DNA from: Fidelibacterota bacterium
GTDB lineage: Bacteria; Fidelibacterota; Marinisomatia; SCGC-AAA003-L08; JACNLC01
Assembly (NCBI GenBank): GCA_013204025.1
Contig: JABMOW010000042.1
Location: 1-32,509, forward strand
Length of the DNA: 32,509 nucleotides
Direction: 5' to 3'
Part shown: piece by piece, positions 2,607-32,485 of the stretch
Layout of the letters: each line of letters begins with the position of its first letter
How positions within the stretch are numbered: the stretch's first letter is position 1
Position numbers and translations under genes: made by a program
The notes under the pieces: model-generated
Seen by the model: only the letters and a program-made list of their open reading frames with translations
Told to the model about the DNA's origin: nothing
Database searches by the model: none

Positions 2607-3842
2607 TTATCTAAAATACTCCATTGTCTTCTGGAGACCACTAATCAATTGTTCAATCTCATCAATTGTGTTGTACACATAAAAACTAACTCTTACTGAT
2701 GCGGATAAATCATATTTATCCATCACCGGTTGCGCACAATGGTGACCTGCTCTGACAGAGATTCCGAATGTGTCTAATAAATGAGCGATATCATGCGGGT
2801 GTATATCTTTATGGAAGAAACTGATCACTGAGGTTGAGTCAATCCCATTCTCATGACCCAAAACAGTCAATCCTTTGATTTCTCGTAACCGTGATACTGC
2901 GGTTGATGTCAACATTCTGACTTGGGAATCAATTGAATCAATATTCATGTTTTTCATAAAATCAATCGCCGCACCCAGTCCAATTACCTGTGCGATGTTG
3001 GGAGTGCCAGCTTCAAACTTATATGGGATATCGTTCCAGATGGCCTTTTCCATGGTAACGGAAAGAATCATATCACCTCCGCCAAGAAACGGATCCATTG
3101 TTTCGAGCATATCTGCTTTCCCATAGAGGATACCAACTCCGGTGGGACCCATCATTTTATGACCGGAAAACACATAAAAATCACAGTCTAAATTTTGAAC
3201 GTCTAGTTTTGAATGAGGAACAAACTGTGCTCCATCAATGAGCGTTTTTGCACCCACATCTCTGGCATATCCAATAATTTCCTTTACCGAATTGATTGTT
3301 CCTAAAACATTTGACTGGTGACTGATGGCAACTAATTTTGTGTTTTTTGTGAAATATCTTTCCGGTGAGGACATATCCAGCGATCCCGATTTGTTCAAGG
3401 GAATATATTTTAGCGTTGCTCCGGTATGTTGTGCAGCCAGCTGCCATGGGACTAGATTGCTGTGATGTTCCATTTCCGTCACGAGTATTTCATCCCCGGT
3501 CTTCAAAAACTTTCGCGCCCAGCTATAAGCGACCAGATTGATGGATTCAGTCGTACTTTTAGTAAAAACGATGTTCCGTCTGTCTGCAGTCCCGATAAAC
3601 TCTGCTACTTTATCTCGGACAGATTCATATGCTTCTGTTGCCTGTTCTGCGATTTTATAGATCCCCCGGTGGACATTCGCGTTATATCGGCAATAAAATT
3701 GATTGACAGCTTCAAGCACCTGTGTTGGTTTTTGAGTAGTGGACGCATTGTCCAGAAATACTAGGGGAGGTAAGTCTGGCTGATTAAAAATGGGGAAATT
3801 CGACCGAATGTTGTACAGATCAAACATGTTATTCATACCCAT
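2607..3842 (-). CDS. sufS: Cysteine desulfurase SufS
   Basis: A PLP enzyme of 411 aa that takes sulfur from cysteine as a persulfide and passes it to SufU for Fe-S cluster assembly. Visible landmarks are FLDNASTTQKP near 29-39, EMEHHSNLVPWQ at 123-134, the SGHK motif with the PLP-binding lysine at residue 229, and RAGHHCAQP with the catalytic cysteine at residue 369. The length is normal for group II (SufS/CsdA-type) desulfurases. Three in-frame ATGs (residues 1, 3 and 6) are possible starts and none has a clear ribosome-binding site, so the exact start is uncertain by a few residues. It is the last gene of the operon and begins 3 nt after the stop of the sufT-like gene. Confidence 0.95.
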   Translation of the reverse strand: MGMNNMFDLYNIRSNFPIFNQPDLPPLVFLDNASTTQKPTQVLEAVNQFYCRYNANVHRGIYKIAEQATEAYESVRDKVAEFIGTADRRNIVFTKSTTESINLVAYSWARKFLKTGDEILVTEMEHHSNLVPWQLAAQHTGATLKYIPLNKSGSLDMSSPERYFTKNTKLVAISHQSNVLGTINSVKEIIGYARDVGAKTLIDGAQFVPHSKLDVQNLDCDFYVFSGHKMMGPTGVGILYGKADMLETMDPFLGGGDMILSVTMEKAIWNDIPYKFEAGTPNIAQVIGLGAAIDFMKNMNIDSIDSQVRMLTSTAVSRLREIKGLTVLGHENGIDSTSVISFFHKDIHPHDIAHLLDTFGISVRAGHHCAQPVMDKYDLSASVRVSFYVYNTIDEIEQLISGLQKTMEYFR

Positions 3843-3845
3843 AAA

Positions 3846-4391
3846 TCAAAGCATACCCAATTGAAGTTTGGCTTCATCGGTCATCATATCTTTGTTCCAC
3901 ATGGGATCCCAGACCAGTTTGACCATCACGTTCTCTACGCCGGACACAGTTTGAACTTTTGTTTCTACATCACGTGCGATAAACGGACCCATTCCACACC
4001 CAGGTGCAGTCAAAGTCATACTGATGATCACATTCCGTTTGCCTTCAACAGGTTCATCAATTTCCAGATCATACACAAGTCCTAAGTCAACGATATTAAT
4101 AGGTATCTCTGGATCATAACATGTTTTGAGCTGATCCCAGATGATAGACTCGTCAAAATCTTGTAGAGGTAGATTATTCTGCTTAGCGAGAATTTCAGTT
4201 TCTATCCCAATGGCATCAGCATCTTCCCCGGATATTCGTACAAGGCTACCGTTTACTGATAATGTATAATCGCCCCCCAGCGCTTGTGTAATTCTTACTC
4301 TGGCACCCTTTAGCAGCGTCACCTGCTCACCTGCCGGTATCAGGACTGCCTTACAATCTCTACTCAGTGTTATGATATCATCGTTGAACAT
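3846..4391 (-). CDS. sufT: SufT-like Fe-S assembly protein (DUF59/MIP18 domain)
   Basis: 181 aa. The N-terminal 75 residues form the extra domain seen in SufT-type proteins. A DUF59 domain follows (about 83-170), with YDPEIPINIVDLGLVYDL near 92-109 and the TLTAPGCGMG segment with a conserved cysteine at residue 132. SufT/MIP18-type proteins help Fe-S cluster maturation, and some DUF59 members are cluster carriers. Placement between sufU and sufS agrees with that role. The stop at 3846 leaves a 3-nt gap to sufS, and the start at 4391 is 6 nt after sufU, so translation is likely coupled. The family is clear; the exact molecular step is not settled by sequence. Confidence 0.9.
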   Translation of the reverse strand: MFNDDIITLSRDCKAVLIPAGEQVTLLKGARVRITQALGGDYTLSVNGSLVRISGEDADAIGIETEILAKQNNLPLQDFDESIIWDQLKTCYDPEIPINIVDLGLVYDLEIDEPVEGKRNVIISMTLTAPGCGMGPFIARDVETKVQTVSGVENVMVKLVWDPMWNKDMMTDEAKLQLGML

Positions 4392-4397
4392 AATTTT

Positions 4398-4841
4398 TTA
4401 TTCTGTCGTTGTTGTTGTGTCGTTTTGGTCTAAAATATTTTTCAAAGTGTGCCATGCAAGAAGCGCACATTTTACCCGTGACGGATATTTATGTACACCG
4501 GTCAACACTTCAAGTTTTCCGATATCATCAGAAGTGATTTCACCCGATGTGATCATATTTCTAAAATTCTTAAACAATTTCTCTGCATCGGCAATGGATT
4601 TTCCTTTTAACTCTTCTGTCATGATGGATGCAGAAGCCTTCGAAATGGCACAACCAGAGCCCATAAAACTGATATCCGATATGTAATCTCCATCAATTTT
4701 GATAAATAGTTGAAGTTTATCGCCACACAGTGGATTATGTCCATCTGCCTTTACAGTAAAATCTTCCATAAATCGGAAATTTCTGGGGTTTTTGTTATGA
4801 TCCAGAATCACCTGTTGGTACAATTCTCTTAAATTATCCAT
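4398..4841 (-). CDS. sufU: SufU, zinc-dependent sulfur acceptor / scaffold-like protein
   Basis: 147 aa of the IscU/SufU fold. It has the three conserved cysteines C39 (NPLCGD, with D41), C64 (GSGCAIS) and C125 (RVKCALLAW). An extra stretch between C64 and C125 (about 98-116) is the insert that separates SufU from IscU. In SufU systems the protein binds zinc and accepts persulfide sulfur from SufS, replacing SufE; no sufE is seen here. The C-terminus ends in a short threonine run. The gene starts 3 nt after sufD ends. It is intact and in the expected operon. Confidence 0.93.
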   Translation of the reverse strand: MDNLRELYQQVILDHNKNPRNFRFMEDFTVKADGHNPLCGDKLQLFIKIDGDYISDISFMGSGCAISKASASIMTEELKGKSIADAEKLFKNFRNMITSGEITSDDIGKLEVLTGVHKYPSRVKCALLAWHTLKNILDQNDTTTTTE

Positions 4842-4844
4842 GGT

Positions 4845-6143
4845 TTATGATCCCGTTCTCTTGATGTCAATCAGGTACTTTTCGATTGCCTGTTGTAAAA
4901 TATTCTTTACAGATTCATTCGAGATCGAATCTAATATTTCCAATGCAAATCCCTGGATGAGCATGAATTTTGCCATTTCTTCGCTAATTCCACGAGACTG
5001 AAGATAAAATACAGCGTCCATATCCAATTCCCCGGTGGTCGATCCGTGTGAGCACTTCACATTATCTGCATTTATTTGTAATCGTGGATTGCTGTTCGTA
5101 GTAGCGTCTTTTGAGAGTAATAATGTCTGATTTTTTTGATTCGCTGAAGTAAGCTGTGCATTAGGAAATACAGTCACCAGACCATCAAATACTCCATGTG
5201 ATGTATCGGTAAGTACTCCTTTAAATATTTCATTGCTGGTGCAATTAGGAGCTATGTGATTAATAAGTGAATGATTATCAATCAGCCCATTATTTTTCCC
5301 CAAAATCAAACCCCGTATATCACATTCCGCACCTTGACCGGATAAATTAACCGTCAGATCATTCCGAATTGTTTTTCCGCCAGTTGAGAAATATTGTGCA
5401 TGAACGCGAGCATTATCCTCCAAAGAAATCCCGGTATTGGTGATTTGATGGTCATTCTCACCACCAAATTGGATAACATGATAATCGAGTTGGCTATTAT
5501 CGCTTAACTTGATTTCTGTCACAAAATTTGAAAAAGAAGATTCGCCCACGCCCTCATTGGAAAGAACAATCGTGCATTTAGAGTTTTTCCCTAAAATAAT
5601 TAAAAATCGGAAATTTAAATTTGTTGGATGATTTGCAATTTCATTTTCGAGGTGGAAATGTACAGGTTTGTCCAATCGAATATTATCCGGTACAATAAAT
5701 ATAAGTCCATCCTGGAATAAAGCCGTATTCAGTGCTGTGAAAGCATCCTGATGCGCCGGGACGATGGTAGAGAATAACGCTTTAACTGTGCTGTTATTTT
5801 CAGATGATACTAATCGTTCAATTGTACAACCGGAAGTTAGGGAAAACTCTGAAAATTGATCCGGATTATTATACTCTCCACTGTGAATATTTATCTGATA
5901 GGCGTCTGATAGTAATAGGTTTTTATTTGAAGAATTTGACGGTGGGTGGAAACCATAATCGTACTCTTGATTGATAATCGGTTGGATATTCGTAAACCGC
6001 CATGCTTCATCTTTATTGGTTGGAAATCCATTGTCAAGTAGGAACTCTCTCGCCTGTTGACGGGAAGCGTTGAATGACGTCATCGTTGGATGATCCTTTG
6101 GAATCCCTTTCACATACGAAATAGGTTTCTGAATATTCTGCAA
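4845..6143 (-). CDS. sufD: SufD, component of the SufBCD Fe-S scaffold complex
   Basis: 432 aa of the SufB/SufD beta-helix family. The C-terminal half has CSHGSTTGELDMDAVFYLQS and RGISEEMAKFMLIQGF, the segments shared with SufB. The N-terminal helical part has the KDEAWRFTN motif near 43-51, typical of SufD. SufD pairs with SufB and the SufC ATPase in the cytoplasm. The start is uncertain. The longest reading uses TTG at 6141-6143, 1 nt after the sufC stop, with GAAGG upstream. An ATG at 6081-6083 (residue 21), with AAGGA about 10 nt upstream, is a fair alternative that would keep the conserved domain. Confidence 0.92.
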   Translation of the reverse strand: MQNIQKPISYVKGIPKDHPTMTSFNASRQQAREFLLDNGFPTNKDEAWRFTNIQPIINQEYDYGFHPPSNSSNKNLLLSDAYQINIHSGEYNNPDQFSEFSLTSGCTIERLVSSENNSTVKALFSTIVPAHQDAFTALNTALFQDGLIFIVPDNIRLDKPVHFHLENEIANHPTNLNFRFLIILGKNSKCTIVLSNEGVGESSFSNFVTEIKLSDNSQLDYHVIQFGGENDHQITNTGISLEDNARVHAQYFSTGGKTIRNDLTVNLSGQGAECDIRGLILGKNNGLIDNHSLINHIAPNCTSNEIFKGVLTDTSHGVFDGLVTVFPNAQLTSANQKNQTLLLSKDATTNSNPRLQINADNVKCSHGSTTGELDMDAVFYLQSRGISEEMAKFMLIQGFALEILDSISNESVKNILQQAIEKYLIDIKRTGS

Positions 6144-6144
6144 A

Positions 6145-6909
6145 TCAAGCCTTCGGTAATTGCGATGATTGGTCTTTCACCCAAGAATACCCTCGTTCTT
6201 CCAAATCCAGAGCAAGACTTTTATCTCCAGATTTGACAATTTTTCCGTCGAGTAAAATATGGATAAAATCTGGTTCGAGATAATCCAGCATTCGCTGATA
6301 GTGAGTGATTAAAATGAAGGAACGATCAGAATTTCGGAAATTATTGATTCCTTCTGCTACCGTTCGTAATGCATCGATATCAAGACCGGAATCTGTTTCA
6401 TCTAAAATACTGAGCGTGGGTTGAAGAACAATCATTTGGAGGATTTCATTCCGTTTCTTTTCTCCGCCCGAAAATCCTTCATTTACCGGACGTTTAATAA
6501 AGCTATCGTCCAGATTTACTTCCTTCAGTTTTTCGCGGATCACCTTTAGGAAATCCATTGCATCTAATTCAGAATCACCTCGATATTTCCGGATAGCGTT
6601 CATTGCTGCTTTGAGAAAGTACATATTATTCACGCCAGGAATCGCTATTGGGTATTGAAACGACAGGAATAATCCTTCGCAAGCTCTCACTTCAGGCGAC
6701 ATTGCCAACAGATCTTTTCCCAAATATTGCACACTACCCTCGGTAATTTCATAGCCCGGCTTACCGGAAAGTACGTTTGCAAAAGTACTTTTTCCTGCAC
6801 CATTGGGACCCATAATTACATGGAGTTCGCCAGGTTTCACAGTTAGATTAATGCCATTGAGAATGGATTTTCCGTCTATTTTTGCATGTAGATTGTTAAT
6901 TATAATCAT
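6145..6909 (-). CDS. sufC: SufC, ABC-type ATPase of the SufBCD complex
   Basis: 254 aa counted from the ATG at 6907-6909 (MIIINNLHAKIDGK), which matches where SufC proteins normally begin. Landmarks are Walker A GPNGAGKS at 34-41, the Q-loop in FQYPIAIPGV, the signature SGGEKKR at 147-153, Walker B LSILDETDSGLD at 166-177 and the H-loop in ILITHYQRML. SufC powers rearrangement of the SufB-SufD pair during cluster assembly. The frame is open upstream to a TTG at 6990 inside sufB, but those 27 extra residues do not resemble the family. With the chosen start there is a 61-nt gap to sufB and no strong ribosome-binding site, which is the one oddity. Confidence 0.92.
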   Translation of the reverse strand: MIIINNLHAKIDGKSILNGINLTVKPGELHVIMGPNGAGKSTFANVLSGKPGYEITEGSVQYLGKDLLAMSPEVRACEGLFLSFQYPIAIPGVNNMYFLKAAMNAIRKYRGDSELDAMDFLKVIREKLKEVNLDDSFIKRPVNEGFSGGEKKRNEILQMIVLQPTLSILDETDSGLDIDALRTVAEGINNFRNSDRSFILITHYQRMLDYLEPDFIHILLDGKIVKSGDKSLALDLEERGYSWVKDQSSQLPKA

Positions 6910-6970
6910 AGGTTCTTGGTTTTGTTTTCTAATTGATTGTTTGCACATTAATGAGGTTGATGATGGATAA

Positions 6971-8416
6971 TCATCCCACACTTCCCTCAAGGCTCACTTC
7001 CATTAATTTTTGGGCTTCTACAGCAAATTCCATCGGAAGTTCGTTGAATACATCCTTACAGAATCCGTTGACGATCATGGATACGGCATTCTCGGCGGAG
7101 ATTCCACGCTGATTGCAATAAAATAACTGGTCTTCGCCAATGCTGGATGTGGTAGCCTCGTGCTCCACCTGTGCTGATGGATTTCTTACATCAATGTATG
7201 GAAATGTATGAGCGCCACATTTGTCTCCGATGAGTATTGAATCACATTGTGAGTAATTCCGGGCGTGAGCTGCGTTTTTCATCACTTTTACAGCACCGCG
7301 GTAGGTCTGTTGTCCCTTCCCGGCGGATATCCCTTTTGAGATGATGGTACTTCTGGTGTCGTTCCCAATATGGATCATTTTTGTACCGGTGTCTGCCTGT
7401 TGATAATTATTGGTAAGGGCTACTGAATAAAATTCACCAATGGAATGATCTCCCTGTAAAAGGACACTGGGGTATTTCCATGTGATGGCTGATCCGGTTT
7501 CCACCTGAGTCCATGAAATTTTTGAATTTCTGCCCCGGCATGCTCCTCGTTTAGTGACAAAATTGTAAATCCCCCCTTTACCTTCTTTGTCACCGGGATA
7601 CCAGTTCTGAACAGTGGAATACTTAATCTCTGCATCATCCAAGGCAACCAATTCTACCACTGCTGCATGAAGCTGATTTTCATCTCTCATGGGCGCTGTG
7701 CATCCCTCAAGATAGCTCACATACGACCCTTCATCTGCAACAATGAGTGTTCTTTCAAACTGGCCCGTATTGGAAGCGTTTATCCGGAAGTAGGTTGACA
7801 ATTCCATTGGACTTCTTACCCCCTTCGGGATATAGCAGAAAGATCCGTCGCTGAAAACAGCAGAATTAAGGGCTGCGAAGTAATTATCGGTTATCGGTAC
7901 CACCGAACCCAGATATTTCTTTATCAATTCGGGATGGACTTTTACCGCTTCAGAGAAAGAACAGAAAATAATGCCAGCTTTAGCCAGTTCGTCCTTAAAT
8001 GTGGTGGCAACGGATACACTATCAAAAATAGCATCTACTGCCACACCAGATAAGAGTTTCTGCTCTTCGAGCGGAATACCCAATTTATTGTAGGTGTCCA
8101 ATAATTCGGGATCAACTTCATCGAGGCTTTCCAACTCTTTTTTCTTTTTGGGAGCTGAGTAATAACTGATGGACTGATAATCGATGGGCGAGTACATCAC
8201 CTTTGCCCAATCAGGCTCGGTCAAGGATTTCCAATGGCGGTACGCTTTTAACCGCCACAGGAGCAACCAATCTGGTTCCTGTTTAATTTGGGACAAACGC
8301 CGGACAACATCTTCGTCCAGACCAGGCGGAAAAGTATCCTGCTCGATGTCTGTTACAAAACCGAATTTGTATTCCTGCTGGGTGATCCGTTCGATGATTT
8401 TAAGATTGTCAGTCAT
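6971..8416 (-). CDS. sufB: SufB, Fe-S cluster scaffold protein
   Basis: 481 aa, the usual size for SufB. It contains the family's strongly conserved stretches: [19 protein letters not shown] near 195-213, YLEGCTAP with C239, NFVTKRG near 285-291, and [17 protein letters not shown] near 391-407, whose C400 aligns with the cluster-assembly cysteine of Suf[16 protein letters not shown] block (about 361-374) also fits. De novo Fe-S clusters are built on the SufBCD complex from sulfur delivered by SufS and SufU. The ATG at 8414-8416 lies 12 nt after the A-type carrier gene and has only a weak ribosome-binding site, so coupling to the gene upstream is likely. Confidence 0.96.
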
Positions 8417-8428
8417 GATCGATAGGCT

Positions 8429-8800
8429 TTATACGGAAAAACTGCTCCCGCATCCACATGATTTACTGGCGTTGGGATTAATCAATCGAAGTCCCGCAGA
8501 ATTCTCATCGCCTGAATAATCCAGGACTAGTCCTTTTAGAAAGGGATAACTCTTGGGGTCACAAATAATGGATAATCCCTGGCTGGAAAAAATCATGTCA
8601 GATTCCTCAGCTTCATTGGTATATTCCATCTGATATGAATAATCATTGCAATTGCAATCCCCCTGAACGACTCTCATCCGCACGCCGAATCCATTAAGAT
8701 TTTTTTCGGTGAATTCTTCACTGAAATAATTTGCTGCGGTTTCAGTCATTGAGATTTGTTCGTGTGCAGAAATGGTCGTGGTGATATTATTTTCTAGCAT
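8429..8800 (-). CDS. A-type Fe-S carrier (HesB/IscA/SufA family) with unusual cysteines
   Basis: 123 aa of the HesB/IscA fold, a carrier that binds and hands on Fe-S clusters. The C-terminal CGCGSSFSV (C115 and C117) is canonical. The first ligand region is not: instead of GGCSGxxY it reads GDCNCNDYSYQM, with cysteines at 49 and 51, an apparent two-residue insertion and no SG. A further cysteine, C80, sits in IICDPKSYPFL where an ordinary hydrophobic residue is usual. The start ATG (8798-8800) overlaps the end of the regulator gene by 7 nt, so translation is coupled. Because of the altered first motif I do not choose between sufA, erpA and iscA. Confidence 0.88.
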   Translation of the reverse strand: MLENNITTTISAHEQISMTETAANYFSEEFTEKNLNGFGVRMRVVQGDCNCNDYSYQMEYTNEAEESDMIFSSQGLSIICDPKSYPFLKGLVLDYSGDENSAGLRLINPNASKSCGCGSSFSV

Positions 8801-25914: not shown

Positions 25915-26613
25915 TTATTTAACCAAAAGAAGCTTTTGGTTAAATTTTGTCATCGGTTTATTAAACGAAATATCGGAAGAAACGACCTGTAGAAAATATA
26001 TTCCAGAGGGTAACTGTCCTCCATCCCATACCAGATTTGTTGTCCCGCGGAAAACATTATTAGAATACAATTTATCAACAAGGCGTCCATTTAAATCAAA
26101 AACTAGTACTTCGATTTTTGAGTATGTATCGCTGTCAATCAAGATGCTTACTTTTCCATTGAATGGATTAGGGTAGGTTTTTATACTGAATCCTATTGGT
26201 AAATTGACCTGCTCATCGAGAGGAAGTGTTTGAATGTTAAAAAATCCGTTGTTTGCCCAGGGGTAATTTTCTGATGAAACGACGTGAATAATTCGATCAT
26301 CGGATGCATCCCAGATGTAGAATTCAGGAATGTCCCCCGTAAGCATATACCCATCTGACCATTCATTACCATCATCTCCCATTGCAGGCACCGTTGTATA
26401 CGGCCCCTCCCATTGCACCGAGCCTACGCAGGTCTCCCCTTTGAAGGCAGCAATCCAATCCTCTCCTTCGATAGGATTAGTATCCACCTCAGCGGAGATG
26501 ATGAAATAAAATGCCTGTAATGACGATTGATTAAATTGAAATGACTGAGGCTGATCAAATGCTATTAATAGATATAATGTCATTATACTGATTAATTTAT
26601 AATTTATTTTCAT
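25915..26613 (-). CDS. Small secreted T9SS-sorted protein
   Basis: 232 aa from the ATG at 26611-26613, chosen because AGGTGA lies just upstream and a signal peptide follows (MKINYKLISIMTLYLLIAF). The longer frame to 26658 would run through a terminator hairpin. Residues about 25-130 form a compact module (FNQSSLQAFYFIISAE, then DWIAAFKGETCVGSVQW, AMGDDG, DIPEFYIWD). It is clearly related to a module near the end of the giant adhesin gene upstream. The C-terminal 80 residues are a sorting domain with YPNPFNGKV and SGIYFLQVV. It would be a minimal exported protein made of one module plus the sorting tail. The function is unknown. Confidence 0.85.
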   Translation of the reverse strand: MKINYKLISIMTLYLLIAFDQPQSFQFNQSSLQAFYFIISAEVDTNPIEGEDWIAAFKGETCVGSVQWEGPYTTVPAMGDDGNEWSDGYMLTGDIPEFYIWDASDDRIIHVVSSENYPWANNGFFNIQTLPLDEQVNLPIGFSIKTYPNPFNGKVSILIDSDTYSKIEVLVFDLNGRLVDKLYSNNVFRGTTNLVWDGGQLPSGIYFLQVVSSDISFNKPMTKFNQKLLLVK

Positions 26614-26630
26614 TGATTCACCTGTAAATG

Positions 26631-26655
26631 AAAAAGACCCACGCGGGGTCTTTTT
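26631..26655 (-). terminator. Terminator after the Sec-DsbA lipoprotein gene
   Basis: 10-bp arms AAAAAGACCC and GGGTCTTTTT with a 5-nt loop, followed on the minus strand by a T run. It lies 26 nt past the stop codon at 26682 and ends about 17 nt before the start of the next gene, which would then need its own promoter or read-through. Confidence 0.88.
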
Positions 26656-26681
26656 CATTCTATAAATATTTACTACTTATT

Positions 26682-27491
26682 CTAATTTTTAAGTATACCG
26701 TCTATGATTCCAGTATAGGTATCAAGATCACGCTTTGGTGGCTCAACGCCGTTGATAAGGAATTTAGGAACAGCCATCCTTAACCCTGTTGATTTTAATT
26801 GTGCAGCTTCTCTTTGGATTCGATCTTGAAGCGCAGGATCGGTAATGTCTCTTTTCATTTGTTCAATATCGAGGCCAAGCTCCACTGCATACTGCAATGG
26901 GAGATCTTCGTCTTTCTTCAGTTGCTGATAATTCCCAAATATCTTTTTATACATTTCAATATATTTTCCCTGTCGTTCGGCTGCGAGGGCATAAAGCGCT
27001 GCTTTATTCGCTTGTTTATGAGAGCTGAGAGGGAAATTTTTTATCACAAGCTTAACATCGTTCGGATATTTTGCTAGAATTTCGTCTATCAAACTGATAG
27101 ATCTAGAACAGTAGGGTCATTGAAAATCCATCCATTCAGTGATTGTCACTTTAGCGTCTGCAGGACCAAAAACGAAAGAATCTCCAATTGCTATATTCAG
27201 AGGTTTACCAGGCTCTGGTGGTTTATTCGCTGGTTGTGCAGATTTTTGCTCAAGAGCCTTCATCTGATTATTGATTTGGGTTATTGAAGCCTGAATACTG
27301 GCAATATTACCTGATATTTCATTTTGACTTTTCTCAAACGCTTCGATTTTTGAGGCTAAAAGATTTTGCTTTTCAATCGTATTGCTCAATTTTGCACTTT
27401 GCTCATTCATCGCTTTCGGATCGCTACACATCATTAGCGGTAGAACCAAAAATAGAGTTGCAAATGCTTTTAATGGCATTTTATCTCTCAT
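26682..27491 (-). CDS. DsbA-like thioredoxin-fold lipoprotein, probable selenoprotein (U-P-Y-C), TGA recoded
   Basis: 269 aa when the in-frame TGA at 27117-27119 is read as selenocysteine. The N-terminus has a signal with a possible lipobox (LMMC, Cys22), then a coiled coil at about 29-83 and a proline-rich linker at 87-97. A DsbA/thioredoxin-4 domain fills 100-269. Its active site reads TEWMDFQ-U-PYC, with U125 and C128, where relatives have DFQCPYC. After it come VKLVIKNFPLSSHKQANKAA and the cis-proline loop AVPKFLING (P242). The frame is unbroken on both sides of the TGA, and the downstream half has no start or ribosome-binding site of its own. AAGGA precedes the ATG by about 6 nt. A SECIS-type hairpin follows the TGA. 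It is expected to act outside the cytoplasmic membrane as a thiol-disulfide oxidoreductase. The alternative is a gene broken by a nonsense change at exactly this cysteine. Confidence 0.85.
27074..27119 (-). promoter_or_regulatory. Bacterial SECIS element with the recoded UGA
   Basis: In the mRNA the UGA (27117-27119) is followed by 15 nt and then a perfect 7-bp stem, UCUAUCA/UGAUAGA (27095-27101 with 27085-27091), capped by the 3-nt loop GUU (27092-27094). The loop G is 22 nt after the UGA, inside the 16-37 nt range known for bacterial SECIS elements, which carry a G at the start of the apical loop. A lower 5-bp helix, CUAGA (27102-27106) with UCUAG (27074-27078), closes the structure with a one-sided bulge. 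The element would be bound by SelB. Confidence 0.82.
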
Positions 27492-27532
27492 GTATTTCCT
27501 TATTTTAGTTGGTTGATAATTTAACGAAAGGA

Positions 27533-27558
27533 GTGGGCTTGGAATTATCCAAGCCCAC
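27533..27558 (-). terminator. Hairpin just past the giant adhesin gene, possible terminator
   Basis: The 10-bp arms GTGGGCTTGG and CCAAGCCCAC flank a 6-nt loop and begin 8 nt after the stop at 27566. The stem is GC-rich, but the minus-strand exit has only a short pyrimidine run (TCCTTTC), so termination may be partial. The structure could equally stabilise the 3' end of the adhesin mRNA. Confidence 0.6.
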
Positions 27559-27565
27559 CTAGCCT

Positions 27566-30500
27566 TTATTTTATTAACATCAGTTTTTGTAATGATGTTT
27601 GATTTTCGGTTACAAGTTTAATAAAATAGATTCCACTTGCAAGATCAGAAGCATCCCATGAAATAGCGTATTCACCCGGTTGTTGTTGTGTATTCACTAA
27701 GCTTGTTACTTCCTGACCGATCATGTTCACTATAACAAGGCTCACATTCGTTTGTTCCGGGAGCTGGTATCTTATGGTAGTTCTTGGATTGAACGGATTT
27801 GGATAAGCAGGGAGTAAACTAACTTGTGTTGGTAATTCAATATATGCAGAGACTTCATCCAGTGCAAATAAACCAAGGTTGTGCCAAGCAGGTGCATTAA
27901 TATTTAAGTTAATCAACTTGTGTTGAGAAGTATTAAAAAGTTTGAATTCAGGTACTTCACCACTATTGAGGTAACCAAAGGTATTATCAGATCCGTCATA
28001 TCCCATAACCGGGATATCTGATATGGTTCCCAGCCATTGACGTGCGCCAACAACCACGCCATTATGATAGGCAACAATCCAGTCATCGGTAGAAATGGGA
28101 AGACCTTCATTTGTTATATTTTCAATGAAATAAAATGCCTGCATTGAAGATTGGTTATATTGGAATTCAGAAGGAACATCTGATAAAGACGGAATTGTGT
28201 AAACCTCATCAGATCGAGCCATTCCAGGTTCATTATAAGAGAATGATATCCCAGCATTCATCTGGAAGATATATCCCATTGTTGGAACAAATCCACCAGT
28301 AGTTAGTGATCCCACCCATTGATCATTATAATAGAAAGCGGCAACACCTTCACCAATGATTCCAGTACTATTAGCGAGCACATCACCTGATAAGACATCG
28401 AAGAATGAACCTTGTTCAAAGAACGGATACGATACGAAATTACTTCCTGCATCTAGATCGTATGTGGGATATGCTTCGGGCATTAAACCAGCAATTTCCA
28501 AAGTCACAGGATTATTCATTTTAATCCAATAGCTGTTCAACAGATTGATTTCCGTTAAATTACCCTGCCACATACTTGTCTCGCAAAAGTACTGACTCGC
28601 CTGACTTTCAGTTATAATACCAGTATAATCACAATTATTGGGTTGAAATACATCTAACAACAATGGCGATTCGGGTAACGCAGGGAAACTTCTCAAATTC
28701 GAGCCAGAATGTAAGTCCATAGAGTAGGGTCCGCAAGCCGTAATACCGGTATTGCCACCTACACAATCACCGCAATCATCTATAAACGCTGTTCCATCGC
28801 ATTCTCCCGCACAGTCCATAGCTCCGTTAAAGTCTGCAAGATCAACACAGTCCTCGCAATCATCAATTACCCAATCGCCACCTGTTACTCCATTACAGTC
28901 AATCTGATCTACAACGACCTCAAAATCTTCAGTATCTGTAAGCAATTCAGGGTCAGTTACGGTAAGCGTCACAAGACCGGAAGTTTCAACACCGAAAGCC
29001 GGAGTCCAGGTAACTAGTCCGTTTGCTGATACCAACATTCCTTCAGGTGCATTAGATAAATCATACGTAAATGTGACATCTTCAGGGTCAGCGTCAAAAA
29101 CAGTCACCTGGTATGTATACTCAGAGGAGATAATTGCAGAAGTCGGTGCAGTGGATGTGATTACCGGTGCATCATCCATTGCTGTAATAACTAATGTAAT
29201 TGTCTCACTGTCACTGCTGTTTCCATCAGATACAGAGATTTCAATGCTTTCATCACCAAAATAATCCTGAACAGGAAGAAGAGTTAATTCATTTCCAATT
29301 ATACTGGTGATAACATTGTCACTGGTATTCGCAGAATAAACTAATGAGGCTACATCGGTATCAACATCGGTTGCTGATAACGTTAGAATTATAGAACCAT
29401 CTTCTTCAACAGTCTGATCTCCCACATCACCAAGAACAGGTGTATCATTGAATGGTATTACAGTGGCAGTCACCTGAGTAGAAAGGTTGGCTTCACCATC
29501 TGATAGATTGATAATCACCACAGCACTTCCGCTCAAATTTGCAGCAGGAGTAAGAGTAACCACATATTGCACTGGTGGAACTGCACCTCCACTGGTAATC
29601 ACGGTTATATTTCCGGTTGGAAATAGGGTCGGATTATTCGTGATAACAGTTACCGTTACAATTTCGTTTGGATCCACATCATTTGCCGTAAACTGTATAA
29701 TTGAGCTTCCTCCATCTTCATAAATAGAAGCAGGAGCAATTATATCTGTGAAATACGGTTGATCATTTACATTTGTGATCGTTAAATTGAATGTTAGAGG
29801 ATCAGACAAATTATCAACGGATTCTCCATCATCAGCGGTCACAGAGATCGTAGCAACTCCCACCATATTTAGCAATGGTGTCATCGTTAATTGATTTCCA
29901 TCAACTGTCACTGTTACTAACTGCGAATTACTTGTAACTTCAGCAGAGAAAGTGATATCACCAATAGGAGTATCCACATCTGTTGCTGAAAGTGTAATGG
30001 TTCTTGGCATTTCTTCAGCCGTTGTTTGATTGGCAATAGTCACCACAATCGGAGGATCGTTTATTGTTGTTACAGTCAGAACAAACGTTTCCGTATCCTG
30101 AAGCAAATCGGTACCTTCCAATTCGGTCACTGTTAATGTGACCGTAATTGAACCTGAGTAGTTCAGTGCGGTGGTCAATAACAATTCGCCTGTAACCAAA
30201 CCAGTTTCATCAGGTTCTGAAATATTTTGTGGAGCGATGGTTAACTTTTGGATATTGGTCGAAGTATAAGTCAGCTCCAATGTATTATCAGGGTCAAAAT
30301 AGGAAATCGGAACCACTAACGGCGTATCTTCCGGAGTGGTCTGATTTACAATTTCCATGATCATCGGTTGATCATTCACACCATTTACGGTAAAGATAAT
30401 GGTTGCTTCGTTGGAGACACCTGCAGGATCACCGTCCAGATTACCCGGATTTGTCAAAGTAAACTTCAAACTATCTGTACCGCTAAAGTTCATATTCGGA

Positions 30501-32485
30501 GTATATCCCAAGATCCATTCAGCCATAATGGGATTGATTAAGGCGTAGGATGAGTTGTCCGTGATACTTCCATTTACAGGTGCTTGAGTGATCGTATAGC
30601 TGGCGCCCGATGCAGGCCATGGATATGAAACATCTAGTCCCAGAAGTGAGAAATTAGTCGCTGAATCTTCTGTAAGCGAGACAGATTGATTATATGCCAA
30701 CGGAACACCTCTAAAAATGTTTTCACGGGCGGCCGGATTGACTAGGGTAATAACCTGAATACCGGATTCAGAAATAGCATCTTTCACTTTATAAACAAGA
30801 TAGTCGGGACTCATACTGCCCGATGTGACCATGTATTCGTTTCCGCTTATATGTGTAGCGGTTCCGCCAAATGCACTATACCCCACACCATTTACCTGGG
30901 GAATAAATTCTATGGTCAATGGATCACCATCTACATCATTAACAATGCCGGAAAATGAAAGAATATCGGGATCAGAAGTAAATGTGAAAGTAAATGCCTG
31001 AGCGGTTGGCAGATCATTAATGGGATAAACCGTTATGCTCACAGTCGAAGGCTGCGAATGCATGGTACCATCATATGCGGTATAAGTCAATACATCCGAA
31101 CCGTTGTAATTAGAATCTGGTATGTAGGTTAACATATCTCCATCGATAAAAGCCAATCCATGTATTGGATCGGATCCAATCTCAAATGTGATATCCTCAC
31201 CATCCGGATCAGCACCTACTAACTCTGATACAAGTGTATTATCTTCATTCACAAATCCTGATAAGTTATAAGATATGGGTGCATCGTTGACATTGACTAC
31301 TGTCACTTCAACAATTGCGATTTCAGAATTTAAAAGTTCATCGGTTGATGTTTCTACCAATTCGAAGAATAGTTGATCAGTGCCCACAAAACCCGGATCG
31401 GGAGTGTATGTGAAATCGAAATCGCTGATAAATACTATTTCTCCGTTTGCAGGAGAATCATCTATGAATTGTAAGGTGACATCATCACCCTCCACATCAA
31501 ATCCGTTGATTGATAATTCAAGATAAGTATTTTCTGATATGACAAATGATCCAGTGGTAGAAATAATATCAACTATCTCAGGTGCATCGTTTTCAGATAA
31601 TATCTCTATTGAAACAATGGCAACATTTGACCAGAACTCACCAATAGCATCATAAATAGTGAAAGTAAATTCGTCATACCCAAAATAATTTTCTATTGGA
31701 GTGTAAACATAATTTGCGAGCACTCGGTCAGCAGTCAGGACACCATGTACAGGTTGGGAAATGATTTCAAATGATAGAGATTCTTCCGGAGTATCTTCAT
31801 CGATACCTGCTAAATTGATATCCATAACCTGGTCTTCGAGTATTTGCAGATTTTGTGACAAAGCGATGGGTACGTTATTAAAATCGTGGATCATAATTGT
31901 AACTATCGCGATCTCTGAATATGAAGTTTGGTTAAATACTTTATATTCAAATCCATCAACACCAGCATAATTCACTTCCGGTGTGTAAATGCATGATAAA
32001 GTCTCGTTTGTACAATCCAGTGACCCATGTGAAGGCGAAGTTTCGATCATAATTTCTAAAGGAAGATCGTTGGGATCACCAGCATCTAAATAAATAGTCA
32101 ATGAATTATTTTCGATAACTTCAAGGTTAGGCATATCATTTGCCCACGGCAGATCACAAACGTGATCATTTGAAGGATCATCATCGCAAACCTCACAGGC
32201 GATATAATTGGGACCATCACAAATACCTAGACAGTCAACAACAGCTATACCGTCGCAAGTACCAGCACAGTCGGTGACATTAGATGTACAATCAGGTACA
32301 GGATCACTACAATCTTCTGTCCAGCCTGCTTCTACTAATGCATCACAATATTCAGTTTCAGTACCAGGGGTTCCCATGCCATCAACGTCTTCATCAAAGC
32401 AATAGGTTAACATCAGAGCGTCACCACCCCAAACTCCGGCACAGTCTTCATTACAGTGATTTTCTGTATCGTCATCACAGACATC
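27566..32485 (-). CDS. Giant cadherin-like tandem-repeat surface adhesin with T9SS sorting domain, 5' end missing
   Basis: At least 1615 aa from the ATG at 32411-32413, but no signal peptide is present. The frame stays open upstream to a TGA at 32486-32488, so the true start lies outside the window. A cysteine-rich DCxGxCDG-type region comes first. About ten or eleven beta-sandwich repeats of the cadherin/tandem-95 kind follow, joined by VNDAP/VNDQP-type linkers with EDxxxxxxLxxxDxD calcium sites. A second cysteine-rich region precedes a pair of related modules (GSNLRSFPALPE; GSNFVSYPFFEQ). An FQYNQSSMQAFYFI module comes next, and then the sorting domain with YPNPFNPRTT. Typical of very large exported adhesins; the ligand is unknown. 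Confidence 0.88.
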   Translation of the reverse strand, partial: DVCDDDTENHCNEDCAGVWGGDALMLTYCFDEDVDGMGTPGTETEYCDALVEAGWTEDCSDPVPDCTSNVTDCAGTCDGIAVVDCLGICDGPNYIACEVCDDDPSNDHVCDLPWANDMPNLEVIENNSLTIYLDAGDPNDLPLEIMIETSPSHGSLDCTNETLSCIYTPEVNYAGVDGFEYKVFNQTSYSEIAIVTIMIHDFNNVPIALSQNLQILEDQVMDINLAGIDEDTPEESLSFEIISQPVHGVLTADRVLANYVYTPIENYFGYDEFTFTIYDAIGEFWSNVAIVSIEILSENDAPEIVDIISTTGSFVISENTYLELSINGFDVEGDDVTLQFIDDSPANGEIVFISDFDFTYTPDPGFVGTDQLFFELVETSTDELLNSEIAIVEVTVVNVNDAPISYNLSGFVNEDNTLVSELVGADPDGEDITFEIGSDPIHGLAFIDGDMLTYIPDSNYNGSDVLTYTAYDGTMHSQPSTVSITVYPINDLPTAQAFTFTFTSDPDILSFSGIVNDVDGDPLTIEFIPQVNGVGYSAFGGTATHISGNEYMVTSGSMSPDYLVYKVKDAISESGIQVITLVNPAARENIFRGVPLAYNQSVSLTEDSATNFSLLGLDVSYPWPASGASYTITQAPVNGSITDNSSYALINPIMAEWILGYTPNMNFSGTDSLKFTLTNPGNLDGDPAGVSNEATIIFTVNGVNDQPMIMEIVNQTTPEDTPLVVPISYFDPDNTLELTYTSTNIQKLTIAPQNISEPDETGLVTGELLLTTALNYSGSITVTLTVTELEGTDLLQDTETFVLTVTTINDPPIVVTIANQTTAEEMPRTITLSATDVDTPIGDITFSAEVTSNSQLVTVTVDGNQLTMTPLLNMVGVATISVTADDGESVDNLSDPLTFNLTITNVNDQPYFTDIIAPASIYEDGGSSIIQFTANDVDPNEIVTVTVITNNPTLFPTGNITVITSGGAVPPVQYVVTLTPAANLSGSAVVIINLSDGEANLSTQVTATVIPFNDTPVLGDVGDQTVEEDGSIILTLSATDVDTDVASLVYSANTSDNVITSIIGNELTLLPVQDYFGDESIEISVSDGNSSDSETITLVITAMDDAPVITSTAPTSAIISSEYTYQVTVFDADPEDVTFTYDLSNAPEGMLVSANGLVTWTPAFGVETSGLVTLTVTDPELLTDTEDFEVVVDQIDCNGVTGGDWVIDDCEDCVDLADFNGAMDCAGECDGTAFIDDCGDCVGGNTGITACGPYSMDLHSGSNLRSFPALPESPLLLDVFQPNNCDYTGIITESQASQYFCETSMWQGNLTEINLLNSYWIKMNNPVTLEIAGLMPEAYPTYDLDAGSNFVSYPFFEQGSFFDVLSGDVLANSTGIIGEGVAAFYYNDQWVGSLTTGGFVPTMGYIFQMNAGISFSYNEPGMARSDEVYTIPSLSDVPSEFQYNQSSMQAFYFIENITNEGLPISTDDWIVAYHNGVVVGARQWLGTISDIPVMGYDGSDNTFGYLNSGEVPEFKLFNTSQHKLINLNINAPAWHNLGLFALDEVSAYIELPTQVSLLPAYPNPFNPRTTIRYQLPEQTNVSLVIVNMIGQEVTSLVNTQQQPGEYAISWDASDLASGIYFIKLVTENQTSLQKLMLIK

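Follow-up and report, generated by a model that had tools for sequence, protein, structure and literature searches.

A DsbA-like gene of Neomarinimicrobiota with an in-frame UGA that probably encodes selenocysteine

The window (the whole stretch of 32,509 nucleotides that was analysed) carries a gene for a DsbA-like protein on its minus strand at positions 26682 to 27491. The ATG start codon lies at 27491 with AAGGAAATAC 5' of it, the TAG stop codon ends at 26682, and a single in-frame TGA stands at 27119-27117. Read as selenocysteine (Sec125), this TGA gives a protein of 269 amino acids with the residues TEWMDFQ-U-PYC around it. An earlier inspection of the letters alone (hereafter the sequence-only reading) had proposed exactly this; its coordinates, frame and TGA position are all correct, and the strand, which it left unstated, is minus for every feature of the gene given below. 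The second redox residue of the UPYC motif, Cys128 (27108..27110), is invariant in the orthologue alignment. The same holds in 19 of 19 orthologues for Pro242 of the VPKF motif (26766..26768), which we take from the DsbA family to be the proline of the cis-Pro loop.

Plain ORF calling divides the gene into pieces of 124 and 136 amino acids, just as had been predicted for automatic annotation. When the codon usage of the window is applied with stops penalised, both halves nonetheless score best in the frame that contains the TGA. The downstream half had been described as having neither a start codon nor a ribosome-binding site. Inspection of the sequence indeed reveals no purine-rich ribosome-binding site before position 27092, but a TTG at that position is a candidate start.

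Residues 105-264 (26700..27179) form the catalytic domain. They match PF13462 (Thioredoxin_4) over their full length with an E-value of 2.2e-21 (77.2 bits against a cut-off of 23.2), and residues 116-248 match PF01323 (DSBA) with 2.8e-15 (57.1 bits against 25.6). The AlphaFold model has a mean pLDDT of 85.5, mostly above 90 in the DsbA-type domain, and places a long helix at residues 25-83 (27243..27419). None of 1000 shuffles equals the heptad score of this helix. Fifteen of the 19 orthologues, the window protein among them, have a stretch before the domain, and each shows a heptad pattern that no more than 23 of 1000 shuffles match (no more than 7 of 1000 in 14 of them; segments were taken at fixed offsets by script). 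This stretch may form the coiled-coil stalk put forward by the sequence-only reading; the other four orthologues lack it. In these stalk-less Sec orthologues (L023-L026) a short N-terminal region takes its place.

The case for a lipid anchor is more mixed. A signal peptide with a degenerate lipobox (LMMC, Cys22) can be read by eye at 27426..27491. Among the 15 stalked orthologues, to which the lipobox counts apply, the lipobox looks usual in ten, with Ser directly before the Cys (-1). In the window protein, however, this position is Met, and a small -1 residue is likewise missing from L016 (FTMC) and L017 (LLYC); two further stalked orthologues (L019 and L028) have no such lipobox Cys. Judged by its lipobox, the window protein is a doubtful candidate for lipidation. 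Since its lipobox is non-canonical and stalk-less members exist, neither the anchor nor an oligomer is universal in the clade.

Among 245 genomes searched from the phylum (Neomarinimicrobiota), 21 have any match, and 19 of these contain an orthologue at the threshold of at least 177 bits. The 18 orthologues besides the window gene are 41-61% identical to it (search table). Each of the 19 contains exactly one TGA, which always encodes the first position of the motif (UPYC, UPHC or UPFC), and at that threshold the 245 genomes contain no orthologue with Cys. Aligning homologues at this codon, which had been recommended as a check for TGA against TGC or TGT, thus returns TGA in all 19 orthologues of the phylum. 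As none of the orthologues in this set has Cys, selenocysteine seems to be required for the function and not just tolerated. Seven weak matches (28-41 bits) have no internal stop; five occur in genomes with an orthologue. Six of the seven (L035-L040) lie in frames of 405-443 amino acids that combine a membrane part with a DsbA-like end carrying Cys, and the member from the window's own genome shares its frame with a VKOR match.

A gene in two pieces, as delivered by plain ORF calling, is also what a pseudogene or a sequencing error would look like: the TGA could be a real stop followed by a dead downstream half, or a wrong base. Against this stands first of all the identical TGA in 19 of 19 orthologues from separate genomes, which excludes chance. 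In addition, change after the TGA is mostly synonymous: 27 synonymous against 3 amino-acid-changing codon differences between L030 and L033, and 51 against 29 between L020 and L021. The corresponding counts are 61 and 38 between the window gene and L016, while the very close trio L024-L026 (4/5, 8/6 and 7/7) says little. In pairs that are diverged enough to tell, these counts point to purifying selection downstream of the TGA, and the downstream halves of the homologues are undecayed, so that this refuting condition named by the sequence-only reading is not borne out. Together with the covarying hairpin described below, these observations rule out chance or decay for practical purposes, and we regard a pseudogene or error as extremely improbable. 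What does count against the selenocysteine reading is the patchy distribution of the gene: it occurs in only 19 of the 245 genomes, and G179, from the same family as the window's genome, has tRNA-Sec and selA without an orthologue.

Directly 3' of the UGA lies a SECIS-like hairpin of seven pairs with the loop GUU (27085..27101). The 19 sequences align without gaps in the region right after the UGA, and the G and one U of the loop are invariant. A conserved loop G has been noted for bacterial SECIS-type hairpins (PMC1794560, excerpt). Across the 19 sequences, 97.6% of the cells of this seven-pair stem, which closes a three-base loop, are paired. Changes on both sides are seen in 4 of the 7 stem pairs, which only 1 of 500 shuffles equals, and the 12 compensatory cells (shuffled mean 2.0) are reached by none of the 500; controls slid along the alignment give at most 3. 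RNAalifold recovers the same stem unaided. Taken by itself, the window hairpin is unremarkable: it is mildly more stable than shuffled sequence (z -1.48) and 15 of 200 shuffles fold as well. This weakness counts against the selenocysteine reading, and the evidence from the hairpin is comparative instead. Rfam families gave no match in the window at gathering thresholds.

The machinery needed to decode UGA as selenocysteine is available. The sequence-only reading had named the sel genes of the same organism as a check, and all four components are found in the genome (3.15 Mb in 163 contigs, 88% complete). The tRNA-Sec scores 65.2 bits (cut-off 47) and is called tRNA-SeC with anticodon tca (UCA) by ARAGORN. 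SelA, at 540 bits (cut-off 268), shares a contig with SelB, which scores 350 bits (cut-off 242; searched in this genome only), and SelD reaches 379 bits (cut-off 125) with one TGA inside the match. Across the phylum, tRNA-Sec (E 1e-8) is found in 152 and SelA (E 1e-40) in 177 of the 245 genomes. For the 19 genomes with an orthologue these numbers are 14 and 15, and at least one of the two is found in 17. Neither was found in the orthologue genomes G170 (58% complete) and G175 (72% complete), which we count against the selenocysteine reading.

The frame stays open whatever the TGA encodes, so that a reassignment of UGA to an ordinary amino acid (as in code 4 or 25) also has to be considered. 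TGA, however, is the ordinary stop of 6 of the 18 other window genes (the absence of internal TGA from these 18 follows from the construction of the ORFs). Moreover, among the protein matches listed for the window's own genome, which include 67 T9SS tails in frames of up to 3886 amino acids, a TGA inside the match is seen only in the Sec gene and selD. The TGA stops and the TGA-free T9SS-tail matches rule out a changed code, and the genome has a true tRNA-Sec besides; the chance that UGA is reassigned in this organism is negligible. The selD gene itself (L013, contig C11) has a single in-frame TGA. SelD is a known selenoprotein family according to excerpts of PMC13188914, and the SelD of this genome is probably a selenoprotein too.

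Given these results we put at about 95% the probability that the apparently stop-broken gene is an intact, functional selenoprotein gene of some Neomarinimicrobiota, a reading about as strong as sequence alone allows. Ribosomes would insert selenocysteine at UGA 125 by means of SelA, SelB, SelD and tRNA-Sec, with the hairpin 3' of the codon directing the insertion. The gene is also an example of what plain ORF calling turns into two fragments.

In a scan of named genomes 540 relatives were found and 80 loci kept. Eleven of these carry the TGA (ten from Candidatus Neomarinimicrobiota and one from 'bacterium TMED161'); they overlap with the loci of the phylum search and are not independent of them. 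The others comprise one close Cys orthologue (L064) and 68 distant loci, with TGC or TGT in all 55 where the motif was found; the remaining 13 gave no motif row. It should be noted that one of the two search patterns requires Cys, and the set leans to Cys forms.

L064 (CANFEH010000075, 2965-3717) comes from a metagenome-assembled genome labelled Zetaproteobacteria. It is 45% identical to the window protein and shares the order of parts (LATSC before the stalk, a heptad stalk and the DsbA domain), but has TGT in place of TGA. The seven-pair stem is absent from its predicted fold, and selA was not found in its assembly (1.8 Mb, completeness unstated). A tree was built of 40 rows: the 19 Sec proteins, L064 and 20 further Cys proteins, the 21 Cys rows being hand-chosen from the 69 non-Sec loci of the scan. 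A single clade of 20 rows (100/99) unites the Sec proteins with L064, which sits among them (inner branches 96/95 and 96/95). Forcing all Sec rows into a clade that excludes L064 lowers the log-likelihood by 18.9 units, at a borderline p-AU of 0.0488. An origin of the Sec form from a Cys ancestor like L064 is consequently disfavoured by the nesting, with the AU test borderline. Tentatively, L064 could be explained by transfer and a change from Sec to Cys, and its Zetaproteobacteria label may be a binning error.

DsbA-like selenoproteins (PF01323, UxxC) are known as such and are commoner in marine samples, according to excerpts of PMC2398784 and PMC13188914. One form, 'DsbA 1' of the Global Ocean Sampling, has the PF01323 domain and UxxC in common with the clade, whereas the excerpted description, by which alone the two are set side by side, mentions no stalk or lipid anchor. 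The 63 sequences of that set may already include this clade. A second candidate for comparison is NF041057, the Rcas_1661 family thioredoxin-like (seleno)lipoprotein, which appears as the 'DsbG-like' selenoprotein in the excerpts of PMC13188914. It is likewise a thioredoxin-like UxxC (seleno)lipoprotein; its profile aligns to residues 13-249 of the window protein and matches every one of the 19 orthologues with an E-value of 1e-5 or lower. The existence of this curated family makes a lipid-anchored Sec architecture less new than the sequence-only reading had supposed. The window protein reaches only 59.3 bits against an equivalog cut-off of 190, which is attained in 0 of the 245 phylum genomes, and membership in NF041057 is rejected by these scores. 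Even the likeness is unspecific, since the Cys protein of G242 (77.5 bits) scores as well as the best Sec protein (78.4 bits).

Our literature search found no report joining selenocysteine, DsbA, lipoprotein, coiled-coil and UGA, none linking the name Neomarinimicrobiota with a selenoprotein, and no match for Rcas_1661. Papers that mention both Marinimicrobia and selenocysteine do exist, as do papers with both SAR406 and a selenoprotein; in the excerpts of one of the latter, PMC5029168, SAR406 cells and a 'DsbA-like protein' appear in separate tables. On sequence grounds, and with scores well short of the NF041057 cut-off, the clade appears to be a new subfamily within a kind of selenoprotein that is already known. 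The additions made here are the clade itself, the presence of Sec in all 19 of its members from this phylum, and its heptad stalk.

The best match in both sequence (5.5e-16) and structure (3.8e-11, first in the Foldseek ranking) is 3gyk, a thioredoxin-like oxidoreductase of Silicibacter pomeroyi, although it covers only the catalytic domain (residues 107-248). Third in the ranking is ScsC of Caulobacter crescentus, and further Foldseek matches include Proteus mirabilis ScsC, Wolbachia DsbA1 and DsbA2, Francisella DsbA1 and BcfH (E-values for the ScsC structures: 7rgv 2.6e-10, 4xvw 3.0e-7, 5id4 3.9e-7). The ScsC proteins of P. mirabilis and C. crescentus resemble the window protein in combining an N-terminal helix with a DsbA-type catalytic domain. 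They differ in having Cys rather than Sec and are only 18-22% identical to it. According to the excerpted literature, C. crescentus ScsC is an isomerase that trimerises through its N-terminal helices (PMC8900818), and trimeric isomerases are also described for P. mirabilis (ScsC) and Wolbachia (alpha-DsbA2). The ScsC helix is thus a trimeriser by experiment, as far as those excerpts go, whereas for the window protein we infer as much.

From the heptad stalk and the structural neighbours of ScsC type we propose that the protein may be an oligomeric isomerase. It would be exported and held at the envelope, where the Sec125-Cys128 pair of the DsbA-like domain would carry out thiol-disulfide exchange on extracytoplasmic proteins, in a direction that may be oxidising or isomerising. 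The heptad-patterned helix would most likely oligomerise the protein, much like its N-terminal counterparts in ScsC, and the whole could act as a disulfide isomerase or oxidase that proofreads the disulfides of large secreted proteins. Partners of the oxidising as well as the reducing kind are conceivable, given the two VKOR matches and the single DsbD_TM match in the genome, and VKOR-type and DsbD-like membrane proteins may feed the Sec protein. To an oligomeric isomerase or oxidase we give roughly even odds. If the stalk does oligomerise, the clade offers a natural test of what selenium contributes to an extracytoplasmic disulfide isomerase.

Many UxxC selenoproteins of the thioredoxin fold are thought to be reductases or peroxidases, and the four stalk-less orthologues would suit a monomeric or membrane-bound redox protein of that type. 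Nonetheless, the domain is of the DsbA/Thioredoxin_4 kind and not a peroxiredoxin, and the nearest solved structures are of the DsbA and ScsC types. We consider such a reductase or peroxidase rather unlikely.

Upstream of the Sec gene and on the same strand, a giant gene (27566..32413) encodes Ig/cadherin-like repeats and a T9SS sorting tail (PF17963, PF17803, PF18962), and its product is a possible client of an isomerase or oxidase. On the other side lies a small T9SS-tailed gene, also on the minus strand (25915..26658, PF18962). A T9SS-tailed upstream neighbour on the same strand occurs in 12 of 18 loci (11 confirmed by PF18962, L058 by motif only). This count is based on 19 related, and hence not independent, loci with our own ORF calls of at least 90 amino acids, one locus being left out for an unreadable upstream gene. 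The pairing is absent from six loci (L043, L044, L048 and L049-L051; families f1, f4, f11 and f20). Downstream, a same-strand protein of one linked group occurs in 12 of 19 loci, but this group comes from single-linkage clustering and is held together mostly by the T9SS tail that its members have in common.

Between the giant gene and the Sec gene stands a terminator-like hairpin (27532..27559, minus strand; terminator scan and fold). The region has two terminator-like sites where 0.9 would be expected. Of 11 other loci that were folded, 8 likewise show strong hairpins by eye ahead of the Sec gene, and L020, L030 and L033 show none. Because such hairpins separate the two genes, they are probably not on one transcript, and we abandoned the idea of a shared operon in favour of conserved adjacency alone. 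A 15-pair inverted repeat 3' of the Sec gene (26626..26660, no strand assigned) is a further possible terminator according to its fold; its T-run falls within the stem and the terminator scan does not call it.

One explanation of the adjacency is that the Sec protein serves specifically to fold the adjoining large, often cysteine-rich T9SS protein, whose disulfides would be made or shuffled in the periplasm before export. The pairing in 12 of 18 loci is to be compared with 67 T9SS tails in the whole of this genome, and T9SS transports folded proteins (PMC9251779, excerpt). The Cys content is 1.4 to 6.4% in the 8 T9SS-tailed neighbours that can be read over more than 600 amino acids. The giant neighbour in the window, however, is not Cys-rich at 1.42% (the other 17 window genes range from 0 to 4.07%), and four neighbours readable only as C-terminal fragments have 0 or 1 Cys each. 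The unpaired loci and the relatedness of the others weigh in the same direction. Since the hairpins argue against an operon, we hold the client relationship to be possible but on the doubtful side. The full combination would be an envelope-tethered, Sec-dependent isomerase, oligomerised by its coiled coil, that is encoded beside large T9SS surface proteins and specialises in forming their correct disulfides before export. It would represent the first ScsC-like foldase with selenium, and we think it unlikely to hold in its entirety.

At the first ATG of the giant gene no signal peptide is visible, and its frame stops seven codons from the contig end (32413-32509); its N-terminus is probably cut or mis-assembled. 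Elsewhere in the window, positions 2607-8800 hold a run of genes that we take to resemble a SUF iron-sulfur cluster operon, and positions 109-1821 presumably correspond to something like a fused ATP sulfurylase/APS kinase.
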